This document shows positions 1,656 to 58,996 of a stretch of 64,000 nt of DNA, piece after piece (the stretch's first letter is position 1; each line of letters opens with the position of its first letter). Source of the stretch: Fibrobacter sp. (GTDB lineage: Bacteria; Fibrobacterota; Fibrobacteria; Fibrobacterales; Fibrobacteraceae). The DNA lies in assembly GCA_024398875.1 (NCBI GenBank), contig JAKSIJ010000005.1:1-64000 (forward strand), given 5' to 3'. Position numbers and translations under genes: made by a program. The notes beneath the pieces are model-generated. The model made no database searches. It had not been told where the DNA came from and saw nothing but the letters and a program-made list of their open reading frames with translations.

Positions 1656-2924
1656 ATGGAAAACATTTGCAATCTCGATGAATACGCCGAAAATCTGGCA
1701 AAGAACGCCAAGCAGGCAACCCGCGGGCTCCGCACCCTCAGTGCAGAATGCCGCAATGCAGCGCTGAACCTGGTCGCCCAAAAGCTTCGCGAGCAGAAAA
1801 GCGCAATCCTCGCCGCCAACAAGCAGGATTTGGATGCCAGTGCCGGGAAAATCAGCGACGCCATGATGGATCGCCTCACCTTGAACGACGCCCGCATTGA
1901 GGCCATGGCCAAGGGTGCCGAAGAGATTGCCGCATTCACCGACCCTCTGGGCCGCATTCTGGAAGCCCGTGAATTGAAGAACGGCATTAAAATCAGCCGC
2001 GTGGCAGTTCCCCTGGGAGCCATCTTCTTCATCTACGAAAGCCGCCCCAACGTCACAATCGATGGCGCTTGCCTCTGCTTCAAATCCGGGAACGCCGTGG
2101 TGCTCCGCGGTGGCAAGGAATCCCTTAATTCCTCCAAACTTTTAGCAAACATTTTCCGCAGCGCCCTTGCCGAAAGCGGCATCAACGAAAACGCGGTGCA
2201 GCTGGTGGAAAATCCGGATCACGCCCTAGTGACAAAGCTTCTGCAGATGAACAACTATCTGGATTTGGTCATCCCCCGCGGTGGCGAGCGCCTCATCCGT
2301 GCTGTTGTGGACCAGAGCAAGATTCCCGTCATCAAGCATTTCAACGGCATCTGCCATGTGTATGTGGACAAGAGCGCCGACATCGAAAAAGCCCGCAACA
2401 TCCTCATCAACGCAAAGACCCAGCGCACTGGAGTCTGCAACGCCATGGAATGCGTGCTGTTTGACCGCCATCTGGAAAAATCCGTGATTGCAGACCTGGT
2501 GAAAACCCTGCAAGACAAGGGTGTGGAATTCTTCGGCAATGCAGAATGCATAAGCACTCTCCCAAGCATCACAGACATCGGCGACGAAAGTAACTACCAT
2601 CACGAATATCTGGCCCTGAAAGCTAGCGTGAAGTTTGTGGACGGCGTGGAAGAAGCCTGCGAACACATCGAGAAAAACAGCAGCGGACACACGGAAGCAA
2701 TCGTGGCCGAAGATGCTACAGCACTCGACTACTTTGCCGCCAACGTAGATAGCAGTAGCGTGATGCTGAACGCCAGCACACGTTTTGCCGACGGTGGTGA
2801 ATACGGTCTTGGCGCCGAAGTGGGCATCAGCACCGACAAGATTCACGCCCGTGGCCCCATGGGAGTAGAGAGTCTCTGCACCTACAAGTGGATTTTGCGC
2901 GGAAACGGACAAGTGAGAGGGTGA
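1656..2924 (+). CDS. proA: glutamate-5-semialdehyde dehydrogenase (gamma-glutamyl phosphate reductase)
   Basis: Second step of proline synthesis: NADPH reduction of gamma-glutamyl phosphate to the semialdehyde, in the cytoplasm. Seen: aldehyde-dehydrogenase fold with FIYESRPNVTIDGA (~125), GGKESLNSS, VIPRGGERLIR (~207), the catalytic-Cys motif TGVCNAMECVLFD (Cys ~261) and the C-terminal HARGPMGVESL. 422 aa from the ATG; a TTG three codons earlier is possible but no SD supports either. proB is not in the window. The stop codon is followed immediately by a mosaic repeat. Confidence 0.97.
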   Translation: MENICNLDEYAENLAKNAKQATRGLRTLSAECRNAALNLVAQKLREQKSAILAANKQDLDASAGKISDAMMDRLTLNDARIEAMAKGAEEIAAFTDPLGRILEARELKNGIKISRVAVPLGAIFFIYESRPNVTIDGACLCFKSGNAVVLRGGKESLNSSKLLANIFRSALAESGINENAVQLVENPDHALVTKLLQMNNYLDLVIPRGGERLIRAVVDQSKIPVIKHFNGICHVYVDKSADIEKARNILINAKTQRTGVCNAMECVLFDRHLEKSVIADLVKTLQDKGVEFFGNAECISTLPSITDIGDESNYHHEYLALKASVKFVDGVEEACEHIEKNSSGHTEAIVAEDATALDYFAANVDSSSVMLNASTRFADGGEYGLGAEVGISTDKIHARGPMGVESLCTYKWILRGNGQVRG

Positions 2925-2927
2925 AGA

Positions 2928-3112
2928 ATGTGGAATGCTGAATGCAGAATGCGGAATGATGAATGCTGAATTTTGTCAAGGCGAGGGCAACGGGACTGCT
3001 TGCAGGCTCACTGCCGAGCCGAAGTCAAAATGAGTGCGAAGCACTAATGCGGAATGATGAATTATGAAGTATGAATTATGAGATATGAATTTTGTCGAGG
3101 CGAGACAAATTA
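2928..3112 (+). repeat. mosaic repeat, copy A
   Basis: Begins just after the proA stop. Order: reiterated GAATGCTGAATGCAGAAT words, TTTTGTCAAGGCGAG, a hairpin CTG-CTTG-CAG (2996-3005), GCCGAGCCGAAGTCAAAATG, a hairpin AGTGC-GAA-GCACT (3033-3045), more GAATGATGAATTATGAA words, then TTTTGTCGAGGCGAG. The same order is found at 39697 and, reversed, inside priA at 53470. No open frame or transposase. Confidence 0.85.
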
Positions 3113-10133: not shown

Positions 10134-10473
10134 TTAAAATTTAAAATTAGTGCTTCGCACTCATTGTGACTTTGGCTCGACAATGTGACTGCAAGCAGTC
10201 CCACTGCACTCGCCTTGTCACAATTCAAAATTTAAAATTCACAATTAGCGTTTCGCACTCATTATGAATTATTAATTGATAACTAAGTCGAGCGTCGCAA
10301 AAATAAACTTGTTTATTTTTATGACCGAGACGCATTATCAAGAATAACGAAGTTATTAATTGATAACTAAGGCGAGTGAAGCGACCATGCTTGCATGGGC
10401 ATTTCCGAGCCGATTATCAACAATAACGAAGTTATTAATTGTGCATTGTGAATTGTGAATTATTAATTCAACA
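10134..10473. repeat. mosaic repeat, copy B (several modules)
   Basis: Fills the 334-bp gap. Three modules follow each other, each with a CTTG/CAAG-loop hairpin. The stems are GACTG/CAGTC (10187-10200), AAAAATAAA/TTTATTTTT (10299-10320) and CCATG/CATGG (10385-10398). GAA-loop hairpins AATAAC/GTTATT occur at 10343-10357 and 10422-10436, and TTC-loop versions near 10150 and 10247. Flanking words differ from copies A, C and D (ATTATTAATTGATAAC, AATTCAAAATTTAAAATTC). The right end runs into the stop codon of the minus-strand gene at 10463. Confidence 0.85.
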
Positions 10474-38368: not shown

Positions 38369-39694
38369 ATGCAGATTGAATGGGAAAGATGCTTGAACTA
38401 CTTACGCGGAATGCTTTCTGATTCCGTGTTCAAAACTTATTTTGCGCAAACCAAGATGGTGAGTCTCACTGCAGGTCACGCCGTGATTACCGTTCCCTCC
38501 GGATTGGACGTGTCTGTCTATTCCGCCTACAAGGAACTCATCAAGCTGGGTTGGAAAGAGGGCAGTCACAGTGACGCTCCCGTAGAATTTGAATTCCAGT
38601 CCCAGGAGATTGCACCGCAAGCTGTGAAGCCCAGAGACAATGGTTTCCAGGATTTCATCAAGCCGAGCGTTCCCCTCTCCAACAGCTACCGTTTTGAAAA
38701 TTTTGTTCCCGGCGATAAAGCACAGCTTGCTTTCAACGCCGCATTGGCTGTGGCCCGCAATCCCGATGGCACACAGTACAACCCGCTATTCATCTATGGT
38801 TCCAGCGGTCTTGGCAAAACCCATTTGCTGCAAGCCATTGGCAACTACATTCTGGAAGAAGACCCGGCAAAGCGCGTCTGCTACCTCACCAGTGAAGACT
38901 TCTCCCAGCAGTATCTGAAGTGCATGCGCGAAGGTCGCATGACGGAACTCTCCGATTTCTATCGCGACGAAGTGGACATTCTCCTCATCGACGACATTCA
39001 GAACTGGGCCGGAAAGCCGGAAACCCAGAACGAATTCTTCCTGATTTTCAACGCCCTCCATCAAGCAGGCAAGCAGATTGTGCTTACTTCTGATGCTCCT
39101 GCCGGCGAAGTGAAGAACCTCTCCGACCGCTTGGTGAGCCGCTTCTCCTGGGGCTTGACCGTTGATATTCAGCCACCCGACGTAGAAACCCGCGAGGCGA
39201 TTCTCCACAAGAAGGCGGAAGAACGCCACTTGGAAATTAGCGATGAAGTGCTCCGCTTCTTGGCGGAACGCATTGCAAGCAATGTCCGCTGCTTGGAAAG
39301 CGCCATCATCAAACTCACACTGCAATCCAGTTTGATGAATCATGATATTGACATGACCATCGCGCAGAAAGTAGCTGCGGAAATCGCTCCCACGCTCCGC
39401 CGTCGCGTCAGCTTGGACGCTGTGCTACATGCTGTTTCTGCCCACTACGAAGTGCCCGAAGCAAAGCTTACGGAACCGGGCCGCGGCACCAAAGAAATTT
39501 CCAAGGCTCGCCAAGTGGCCATGTACTTGATGCGTGAATGCTCTTCCATCAGTTTGCAGAGCATCGGTTCCCGGTTTGGCGGCAAGGACCACTCCACGGT
39601 GGTGCACGCCATCAAGCTAGTGAAGGCTGAAATGGAGACGGACGCCTCCTTCGCAAGACTTATCGAAAGCCTGAAGAACGCTATACACGATTAA
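38369..39694 (+). CDS. dnaA: chromosomal replication initiator protein DnaA
   Basis: 441 aa. Short domain I (~1-75), little domain II (~76-105), AAA+ domain III with Walker A GSSGLGKTH (~144), Walker B ILLIDDIQ (~205) and sensor motifs, and domain IV (~345-441) with ISKARQVAMYLMRE and the DNA-binding signature GGKDHSTVVHA (~411; Lys replaces the common Arg). Binds DnaA boxes and opens oriC. dnaN, recF and gyrB are not adjacent. Stop is directly followed by mosaic repeat C. Confidence 0.95.
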   Translation: MQIEWERCLNYLRGMLSDSVFKTYFAQTKMVSLTAGHAVITVPSGLDVSVYSAYKELIKLGWKEGSHSDAPVEFEFQSQEIAPQAVKPRDNGFQDFIKPSVPLSNSYRFENFVPGDKAQLAFNAALAVARNPDGTQYNPLFIYGSSGLGKTHLLQAIGNYILEEDPAKRVCYLTSEDFSQQYLKCMREGRMTELSDFYRDEVDILLIDDIQNWAGKPETQNEFFLIFNALHQAGKQIVLTSDAPAGEVKNLSDRLVSRFSWGLTVDIQPPDVETREAILHKKAEERHLEISDEVLRFLAERIASNVRCLESAIIKLTLQSSLMNHDIDMTIAQKVAAEIAPTLRRRVSLDAVLHAVSAHYEVPEAKLTEPGRGTKEISKARQVAMYLMRECSSISLQSIGSRFGGKDHSTVVHAIKLVKAEMETDASFARLIESLKNAIHD

Positions 39695-39696
39695 TT

Positions 39697-39835
39697 AATG
39701 CAGAATGCTGAATGCAGAATGATGAATTTTGTCGAGGCGAGTGCAGCGGGACTGCTTGCAGGCACAATGCCGAGCCGAAGTCAAAATGAGTGCGAAGCAC
39801 TAATGCTGAATGCAGAATGATGAATTGATATCTAA
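39697..39835 (+). repeat. mosaic repeat, copy C
   Basis: Begins right after the dnaA stop. Same order as copy A: GAATGCTGAATGCAGAATG words, TTTTGTCGAGGCGAG, hairpin CTG-CTTG-CAG (39751-39760), GCCGAGCCGAAGTCAAAATG, hairpin AGTGC-GAA-GCACT (39789-39801), more GAATG words. Confidence 0.85.
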
Positions 39836-39856
39836 CAGGAAATGCGTTCGATTCAC

Positions 39857-39976
39857 AATTCACAATGCAAAATTAAGTGCCTGGAGAGGGCATCTTTTTT
39901 GCAATTCAAAATTTAAAATTCACAATGCAAAATTAAGTGTCTGGAGAGGGCATCTTTTTGCAATTCAAAATTTTGG
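39857..39976 (+). repeat. two 60-bp tandem units
   Basis: CACAATGCAAAATTAAGTG, then CTGGAGAGGGCATCTTTTT and CAATTCAAAATTT, occurs twice with a 60-bp period (units from 39861 and 39921). They differ by one C/T change and one T in the T-run. Flanked by ATTCACAATT words of the mosaic family. The duplication looks recent. Confidence 0.85.
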
Positions 39977-51853: not shown

Positions 51854-54034
51854 TTATTCAATCTCAATCTTCAAATCCACGCCGGGGAAGCTTCCCTTGG
51901 GATTATTCACCAGCGGGTATAGAAGGCGACGCACAGGATTCAAATCATTTGTCTTCAAATAGAGTTTTGTCCAATGCACATTCTGGACCACGGCAATGAA
52001 GGCGTCAACGGGGCCCAAAACCAGCAGGTTCTTTTCTGAACGACAAATCCGCTCCACTTCCGCCACCGCTTTTTTCAAGAGCGATTCGTCCTTACTCCCC
52101 ATGGAGATGGAAACCAGTTTGCAGAAGGGCGGATAGAAGGCATCCCTGCGCTCATCCATTTCCCGCTCCGCAAAGCCCGCAAAATCATGATGAATGGCAA
52201 ACTGCATTACCGGCTCGTTTGGATTCAGCGTCTGAATCAAGACGTGGCCACCGCCCTCTGCACGGCCCGCGCGTCCCGCGGTCTGGCTCAGGAGTTGAAA
52301 GAGCCGTTCACCGCCGCGAAAATCCGGAATGCCAAGCCCGCTATCTGCACCCACAACGCCAACCAAGTGTACCCCGGGGAAGTCATGTCCCTTGGCTACC
52401 ATTTGCGTCCCGAGCAAAATGTTGTATTCCCGATTGCGGAAGGATTCCAGAATTTTTTCGATGGAGCCCACGTTCTGCGTGGTGTCGCGGTCCATGCGGA
52501 TTACTTTTGCGTTAGGCACCCACTCCTGAATTTCCTCTTCCAGCTTTTCGATGGCACCGCCCACAAACTCGAAGGTTTCGGCCCCGCAACTGAAGCAGGG
52601 CGAATTTACAGGATACAAGAGATTACAGTAATGACAAAGTAACGCCTTGTGCTGTTTATGATAAACTAAGGGGACGTGGCAATGCTTGCAGTAGAGAGTT
52701 TCGCCGCAGGCACTGCAGACGCGAATCTTGGAATAGCCCCGACGATTCATGAGGATGATGGCCTGATGACCGCCCGCGATACACTGCGTGAGGGCATCCC
52801 GAAGGTCGGGAAACATGAGGATTCCCTGCTGCTGACGGACCTTCCCCATATCCACGATGTTCACCTGCGGAAGTTCCACCGCGGTGGCACGCTTTTTCAG
52901 GGTGAGATATTTGAGGTGACCCTCTTTTGCGTTGTGGAAAGTTTCAAGGCAAGGCGTTGCCGACCCGAGAACCACCAGAGCGCCGTACTTGTGAGCCAAG
53001 TGATAAGCCAGTTCCCGCGTATGGTAGCGAGGCGCAGGGTCCTGCTGTTTAAAGGAACTGTCATGCTCTTCATCCAGAATCACAACATCAAAATCAAAAG
53101 GCGCGAGAATGGCACTGCGGGTGCCGAGAACAACCTGAGCCTCGCCAGCCAAAACGGAAACATACGCCGCCCGTTTTTTCGGAGCGGAAAGTGCCGAATG
53201 GAGCACCTGGACGGGAACTTGCAGAAAATCTTCAAAACGTTTCGCGGTCTGGGGCGTGAGGCCAATTTCGGGCACGAGAATCAGCACCTTCTTCCCTTGC
53301 CTCAGGGCGGCGAAAGCAAGTTCCTGATAGACGCGGGTCTTGCCAGAGCCCGTGACACCATGCAAAAGCGCACCTCTGAAACCGGACTTCGGAAGTTCTT
53401 CAACCAAGGCATCCAAAGCAGCCTGCTGCTCATCCGTAAGCGGCGGAACCTCTGGCCGCCCGACCCTCGCCTCGACAAAATTCTGCATTCCGCATTCAGC
53501 ATTCAGCATTAGTGCTTCGCACTCATTTTGACTTCGGCTCGGCAATGCCCGAGCAAGCTCGGTCGCTGCACTCGCCTCGACAAAATTCTGCATTCTTAAT
53601 TCTGCATTCTGCATTCTGCATTCTGCATTAGCCACCGCATCCAAGTACTTCTCAAAATCCGCGGGCCAGAACACATCCAGAGCCTTCATGGGCGTGCTGA
53701 TATAATAGCGGGCCACCCATTCCAGCGCCTCCATGTAGCGCTCAGAAAATGTATAGCCCGACGCATGAGGATAAACGCACCGCACATCAAAAGCGGGCCG
53801 TTCCACCAACTTCGCAACCACTGCCAGCATGGGCTTTTTTCGGGTAGCAAACTGCACCCACACCACGCTCCCGCGACGAACCCTCACATCCCCTGGCAAA
53901 TCCTCGGGGATACCGTAGGTAAACACCGACGGCGCCTGTGGAATGTACACCTCGCAAAACCAGCTAAGACTTTGGGCCTTGCACCTGGTTTTGACGGCTT
54001 CTGGAGCCTCCGTTTTTGGAATTCGCTTCGCCAT
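51854..54034 (-). CDS. priA: primosomal replication-restart helicase PriA with in-frame repeat insertion
   Basis: 726 aa from ATG 54034 (GGGGGT just upstream). N-terminal DNA-binding domain (~20-115), then helicase: Walker A HGVTGSGKT (~223), DEEHD (~318) and SGLGIPDFRGGERLFQLLSQTAGRAGR in two motifs, plus eight zinc cysteines (CSACG, CKHC, CHYC, CFSCG; ~447-495). Residues ~135-189, between the DNA-binding part and the helicase, are the translation of a mosaic repeat (NAECRMQNAELRMQN...). The frame is kept. Elsewhere this linker is short, so the insertion is probably tolerated rather than functional. Confidence 0.95.
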   Translation of the reverse strand: MAKRIPKTEAPEAVKTRCKAQSLSWFCEVYIPQAPSVFTYGIPEDLPGDVRVRRGSVVWVQFATRKKPMLAVVAKLVERPAFDVRCVYPHASGYTFSERYMEALEWVARYYISTPMKALDVFWPADFEKYLDAVANAECRMQNAELRMQNFVEASAATELARALPSRSQNECEALMLNAECGMQNFVEARVGRPEVPPLTDEQQAALDALVEELPKSGFRGALLHGVTGSGKTRVYQELAFAALRQGKKVLILVPEIGLTPQTAKRFEDFLQVPVQVLHSALSAPKKRAAYVSVLAGEAQVVLGTRSAILAPFDFDVVILDEEHDSSFKQQDPAPRYHTRELAYHLAHKYGALVVLGSATPCLETFHNAKEGHLKYLTLKKRATAVELPQVNIVDMGKVRQQQGILMFPDLRDALTQCIAGGHQAIILMNRRGYSKIRVCSACGETLYCKHCHVPLVYHKQHKALLCHYCNLLYPVNSPCFSCGAETFEFVGGAIEKLEEEIQEWVPNAKVIRMDRDTTQNVGSIEKILESFRNREYNILLGTQMVAKGHDFPGVHLVGVVGADSGLGIPDFRGGERLFQLLSQTAGRAGRAEGGGHVLIQTLNPNEPVMQFAIHHDFAGFAEREMDERRDAFYPPFCKLVSISMGSKDESLLKKAVAEVERICRSEKNLLVLGPVDAFIAVVQNVHWTKLYLKTNDLNPVRRLLYPLVNNPKGSFPGVDLKIEIE
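53470..53631 (-). repeat. mosaic repeat, copy D, inside the priA coding region
   Basis: About 162 bp. On the minus strand: GAATGCAGAATGC words, TTTTGTCGAGGCGAG, hairpin CCGAG-CTTG-CTCGG (53562-53549), GCCGAGCCGAAGTCAAAATG, hairpin AGTGC-GAA-GCACT (53523-53511), GCTGAATGCGG words, TTTTGTCGAGGCGAG. The length is a multiple of three and all words avoid stops in the priA frame. Confidence 0.9.
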
Positions 54035-58922: not shown

Positions 58923-58996
58923 TCGGGATGACTGAATTCGAATCAGCGACCTCTTGAACCCCATTCAAGCGCTCTACCAGGCTGAGCTACATCCCG
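58923..58996 (-). tRNA. tRNA-Pro (anticodon GGG)
   Basis: Minus-strand cloverleaf: acceptor CGGGATG/CATCCCG, D-stem GCTC/GAGC, anticodon stem CTTGA/TCAAG around loop ATGGGGT (anticodon GGG), T-arm GCTGA-TTCGAAT-TCAGT with one G-T pair, discriminator A. CCA is not encoded. It reads CCC/CCU proline codons. It stands alone, followed by its own terminator. Confidence 0.95.

Follow-up and report, generated by a model that had tools for sequence, protein, structure and literature searches.

The priA gene of a Fibrobacter gut bacterium carries 54 repeat-derived codons that probably stem from a dispersed mosaic element made of heptanucleotides and inserted in frame, which would turn over by slippage and exchange and be tolerated in flexible linkers. 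The gene lies in a 64,000-nt stretch of DNA (hereafter the window) from a genome of 2.78 Mb in 90 contigs (G000). On the minus strand its frame stays open between 54064 and 51854, with a conserved ATG at 54031, and encodes PriA: TIGR00595 and the PriA Pfam domains match, and the best structure matches are solved PriA structures (Table 1).

The repeat-derived segment in PriA

Translation and alignment place the segment at N135–A188, predicted from the DNA as NAECRMQ NAELRMQ NFVEASA ATELARA LPSRSQN ECEALML NAECGMQ NFVEA. The first-pass annotation had reported a repeat copy at 53470–53631 that adds about 54 residues between the DNA-binding part and the helicase. Its length and composition were right, and the codons run here from 53629 to 53468. 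The segment follows the 3'-DNA-binding domain (residues 33–123) and precedes the helicase (from about residue 198). AlphaFold pLDDT is below 50 at residues 142–191, which fits a flexible linker. Outside the insert, the dN/dS of PriA against the sister species is 0.065. The segment is presumably translated, and its effect on PriA would be near-neutral. A search of this genome with a 171-nt priA stretch gave 62 matches at E ≤ 0.001, so the resemblance is not due to chance.

With the repeat discounted, the stretch from the 3'-binding domain to the helicase (window 53627–53690) spans ~34 residues between aligned points, against 111 in Klebsiella PriA. The shorter stretch holds for Fibrobacter PriA generally, and the winged-helix domain may be missing from these proteins.

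Table 1 Features of the priA insert, further copies in the window and other arrays in frame. Plain numbers are window positions; contig positions (C) are in G000.
Feature	Location	Strand	Basis
priA (primosomal protein N', 725 aa from conserved ATG)	51854..54031	−	ORF list, TIGR00595, PriA Pfam domains, PriA structures
Codons of the 54 repeat-derived residues, N135–A188	53468..53629	−	Translation; alignment to the sister and 28 other Fibrobacter PriA
Example peptide NFVEASAATELAR	within PriA residues 135–188		
5' heptamer array TAATGCA(GAATGCA)3GAATTAAGAATGCAGAATT	53584..53630	−	Pattern scan
43-nt hairpin core AGGCGAGTGCAGCGACCGAGCTTGCTCGGGCATTGCCGAGCCG	53535..53577	−	Matches in 53/80 Fibrobacter genomes; compensatory changes
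Small hairpin of the cassette GTGCGAAGCAC	53512..53522	−	Sequence; shared by most copies with a core in this genome
3' heptamer array TAATGCTGAATGCTGAATGCGGAATGCAGAATT	53479..53511	−	Pattern scan
Truncated start of second cassette (GAATTTTGTCGAGGCGAG), right end of insert, also in sister	53466..53483	−	Repeat search, sister alignment
Family member outside priA	2920..3104	+	Repeat searches
Family member outside priA	10139..10253	−	Repeat searches
Family member outside priA (L003), stops in all frames of core strand	39689..39829	+	Repeat searches, stop counts
Metallophosphoesterase, in-frame array	C88:64.6k		
RsmG, in-frame array	C88:92k		
IspE, in-frame array	C12:242.6k		
RlmL-like methylase, in-frame array	C23:193.2k		
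Maf, in-frame array as N-terminal extension	C34:80k		
Uncharacterised secreted-type ORF, in-frame array	C1:246.5k		
Second dispersed repeat	C88:64.6–65.5k (L002); C23:193–194.6k (L151)		

The annotation had proposed aligning PriA from relatives. In this alignment none of 28 other Fibrobacter PriA proteins has the segment, and their linkers are either shorter or of unrelated sequence. Linker length varies across the genus, and unit-step length changes occur at other arrays, as expected if an ordinary tandem repeat with no relation to the other copies had grown by slippage in a linker native to PriA. We consider this origin highly improbable. Both the 43-nt core and the truncated second cassette of the insert recur at many other loci, and none of the 28 relatives has a heptamer seed at the linker site. 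Native slippage is already contradicted by the shared core and could explain only fine variation in unit number.

The sister species (G042) has 95–97% nucleotide identity to this genome. Its priA contains a shorter insert, TAATGC...GAATTTTGTCGAG, without the core: it lacks 84 nt (12 × 7, or 28 codons), the part that holds the palindromic core. Since the array is common to both priA genes, it was already present when the two species diverged. This refines the annotation's view of a recent insertion: the difference between the two is confined to the core-bearing part, which may have been gained here or lost in the sister. The extra 84 nt come from one draft assembly. Assemblers fail at repeats, and a draft in so many contigs could harbour an assembly or binning artefact. 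That explanation has very little probability in our view: the separate assembly G042 has the same priA array including its truncated right end, as well as the IspE, RlmL-like and phosphoesterase inserts, and the frames remain open in genes under purifying selection.

Heptamer arrays and hairpin cores

A census gave the array form AAT-NNN-(GAATNNN)n-GAATT. Across 212 units, NNN was GCA (63), GCT (36), GAT (27), GCG (25), TTT (17), TAT (16) or TGT (12). The commonest size was n = 3, and a T followed the final GAAT in 59 of 63 arrays. In 442 kb chosen regardless of repeats, arrays with n = 1, 2, 3 and 5 numbered 8, 1, 6 and 1, against 0 in the reversed control; over the whole genome, GAATNNNGAATNNNGAATNNNGAAT has 107 matches and its reversed control 0. 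In the pattern scan arrays appear to favour odd unit numbers, in a sample too small to claim this.

The length of the repeat unit is not constant: a variable count of 7-nt units surrounds a hairpin core. Hairpin modules sit between arrays and many arrays adjoin small hairpin cores, while others occur without any core or with many different hairpins. The annotation had described the unit as a multiple of three and stop-free in the priA frame. Both properties belong to this insertion; the multiple of three does not extend to the unit, since array length varies in 7-nt steps. Matches to the 43-nt core span the genus, and all exact matches in named genomes are from Fibrobacter. Among 42 distinct cores, two pairs vary compensatorily (GC/AT/CG and AT/TA/CG). 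At four loci (L015, L020, L070, L072) the core is interrupted by a ~69-nt palindromic segment (CAAACCCATAAGCGAGCAAAG...TTTGGTACTTGTA), so that elements are nested in elements. One copy outside priA in the window adjoins a 60-bp tandem duplication (39851–39970, 85% identical).

Short tandem repeats here are almost exclusively of period 7. We found 16 period-7 tracts in the 442 kb of this genome and 26 in 340 kb of another species (G051), with 10 and 22 tracts, respectively, at period 14, a harmonic of 7. In the same two samples, a few tracts had periods 3, 11, 12 or 15 and none had periods 4–6, 8–10 or 13; Markov controls yielded 0. Loci from other species (362 kb) contained 38 period-7 tracts and no more than 3 at each of the other periods tested. 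The dialect of this genome is GAATGCN; elsewhere it is TAGTGGT, GACGAGA, AACTCAT, ATTGATG or AATTCGG. The GAATNNN form is abundant solely here (107 matches) and in the sister (113), all others having 17 or fewer.

Rfam gave no match at the repeat, its sole match being a tRNA at 58923–58996, and a known structured RNA was rejected as its identity on this ground. Plasmid or phage origin was likewise rejected, there being no match.

The hairpin core with its compensatory changes, the dispersed copies and the constant array ends would also suit a transposase-mobilised miniature element (a MITE, an RPE-like element, or a REP with RAYT) that landed in frame, the heptamers being merely its arms. We regard this as unlikely. 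Y1 transposases (PF01797) occur in 27 of 80 genomes, compared with 53 of 80 for the core; many core-bearing genomes have none, and this genome has one incomplete copy. Because the transposase distribution does not follow the core, REP/RAYT mobilisation was rejected. Arrays also exist without the core and with many different hairpins. Array ends favour AAT...GAATT, and no clean empty site, at which a target duplication would show, was seen.

Arrays in other genes and their turnover

Beside priA, at least five other conserved genes contain in-frame arrays, flanked by sequence that matches protein families, which bears out the annotation's view that the repeat can spread into essential genes. PriA, IspE, RsmG, the RlmL-like protein, the phosphoesterase and Maf are under purifying selection (dN/dS 0.056–0.246 against the sister for these six host genes, the C1:246.5k ORF being left out of the comparison). 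The IspE insert is identical in both sister species and sits in a loop that is variable across the genus. RlmL-like proteins of 13 other Fibrobacter genomes have 16 in-frame arrays, in other dialects and about four loops (for example, LDERRETKDER, SLTTNHQPLTT, HIIHHQSSIINYPLSIT, NSEFGVQNSELR and QSSIINHQSSII); as the loci were chosen for these genes, this count is not a genome-wide rate. In the 340-kb sample of G051, long open flanks were seen at none of the 26 tracts. The gene-versus-array statistics are based on searches and on selected stretches of the genome. The genus seems to keep adding heptamer repeats to its proteins, different ones in similar loops.

Further repeats accompany these arrays. 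The N-terminal extension of Maf (L153:2516–2637, C34, ~80.8k; L183 in the sister) consists of three 48-nt repeats (STLTSPDDNSAFSIHE), each containing heptamers. Both the phosphoesterase and the RlmL-like protein also contain, in frame, a second dispersed repeat with the DNA sequence GTCATTGCGAGCC...GGCAATCC, which reads as HCEPVGRGNPSDS or VIASPSGRGNLLK. In other species the same RlmL loops contain further repeat-like peptides (VTLSETKGPVKS, CHSERSVAKS). An ORF antisense to the array at C11:44.3k (L026) was dropped as a host gene; it has no gene support, and a 14-nt difference in the sister breaks its frame.

Repeats of 7 nt should rank among the worst for genes, because loss of one or two units breaks the frame; yet they are present in PriA, IspE and other core enzymes. 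Three heptamers make 21 nt, or seven codons, so an array yields the same heptapeptide cycle (such as NAECRMQ) in any frame. GCA and GCG units are stop-free in all six frames, and those ending in T permit TGA in one. This gives a simple reason for the tolerance of GCA and GCG arrays whatever the frame. Outside genes, 10 of 11 core-bearing copies are interrupted by stops in all three core-strand frames; those in priA and the phosphoesterase have one stop-free frame, which is the frame the gene uses. Peptides such as NAECRMQ, DERRETKD and LTTNHQPLTT should accordingly be annotated as repeat-derived and not as domains. Among the genic arrays (PriA, IspE, RlmL-like, phosphoesterase, RsmG and Maf), the clear cases share a single phase, T|AAT..., which yields NAEC... 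or NSAF...; a phase reading TAA is excluded, and the third possible one was not seen.

Genic length differences between the sisters are +84, −48 and +48, all multiples of 3. This agreement is weak alone, as only three differences were available (chance 1 in 27). Differences outside genes include four of −14, of which one is at a replaced array, besides −7 and +77. The steps by which core cassettes are present or absent are 84 nt (priA) and 77 nt (11 × 7; L009/L066). Each is a multiple of 7, a pattern that exchange between arrays in 7-nt register would produce. With flanks conserved, the RsmG array differs in dialect between the sisters, and the L014/L068 array in dialect and orientation. Arrays L007, L014b and L127 were excluded from this comparison because their apparent absences were misplaced anchors.

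In a gene, the 7- and 14-nt steps seen outside genes would shift the frame, and unit gain and loss could then toggle host genes as a contingency (phase-variation) device. Such a role is most improbable: the host genes have housekeeping rather than surface functions, the frames of PriA, IspE and the others remain open in either species and their dN/dS is low, and the observed genic differences preserve the frame.

Under the preferred account of a mosaic element in turnover, arrays would change by gain or loss of 7-nt units through slippage, and those sharing the 7-nt register would undergo exchange or deletion between them. Cassettes would thereby come and go in multiples of 7. Within genes, events would survive only if they also preserve the frame, and mostly in flexible loops, in which the added residues would be near-neutral. 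The wholesale replacement of arrays (RsmG, L014/L068) is unlike what simple slippage predicts and is what this model explains least well. Tentatively, an unrecognised Fibrobacter process might instead write DNA in a seven-base register, as lineage dialects, wholesale array replacement and repeated in-frame entry into the same enzyme loops would suggest. If so, this process would generate protein-altering repeats in a way that neither G-quadruplexes nor a transposase accounts for. With its species dialects, two closely related sisters and the recurrently hit RlmL, the genus makes it testable how short repeats come into essential proteins and reshape them.

Comparison with known dispersed repeats

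We found no account of Fibrobacter repeats of this sort in the literature, subscription papers aside. The hairpin cores in mosaics, mostly intergenic, recall the REP/BIME elements with RAYT transposases (PMC3733652, PMC3116915). Unlike these, core-bearing Fibrobacter genomes have no consistent Y1/RAYT-type transposase, and the 7-nt arrays are additional.

Rickettsia palindromic elements are dispersed repeats of ~150 bp that lie in frame in unrelated housekeeping genes and add a peptide (PMC10969869). The annotation's likening of the priA insert to them was apt as an analogy: in-frame insertions occur here in housekeeping genes (priA, ispE and others) and are absent from close homologues. It did not extend to structure, as this is a heptanucleotide array with hairpin modules and not a fixed palindromic element. 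The Fibrobacter element lacks a fixed length or family consensus, is dominated by 7-nt units and is presumably unrelated in sequence; most copies lie outside genes with stops in their flanks, and there is no conserved peptide frame. The Fibrobacter repeats are not members of the Rickettsia family, from which structure and genus-restricted core matches, not sequence alignment, set them apart.

Closest in kind are the dispersed heptamers known from Xanthomonas, Nostoc and Geobacter. PMC2700814 describes four-unit heptanucleotide elements (GGGACCG) at 49 intergenic and intragenic places in Geobacter metallireducens, sometimes more than one per gene, interpreted as regulatory RNA elements; on that description they share the heptanucleotide arrays and differ in sequence. 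Dispersed heptameric repeats are also known in Xanthomonas (GGGNATC) and Nostoc (GGGGAYT), where 7–11% and about a third of arrays, respectively, overlap genes (PMC4692102), so intragenic heptamers as such are already known. What is added here is the in-frame, multi-dialect and recurrent pattern in conserved enzymes, across species.

The Fibrobacter repeat has the defining features of dispersed heptamers, namely degenerate 7-nt tandem units and a period of 7 strongly over-represented against neighbouring periods. As in Xanthomonas and Nostoc, short arrays of a few units occupy many chromosomal places, mostly intergenic with a minority in genes, and have no tie to insertion sequences. By contrast, Fibrobacter arrays flank hairpin cores and have lineage-specific dialects. 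The units GAATGCN and GAATTNT have no G-tract and fall outside the quadruplex subtype of Xanthomonas and Nostoc; as they are not G-rich, quadruplex formation does not explain them. Dispersed few-unit arrays without G-tracts are also relevant to the explanation of heptamer repeats in other organisms by quadruplexes.
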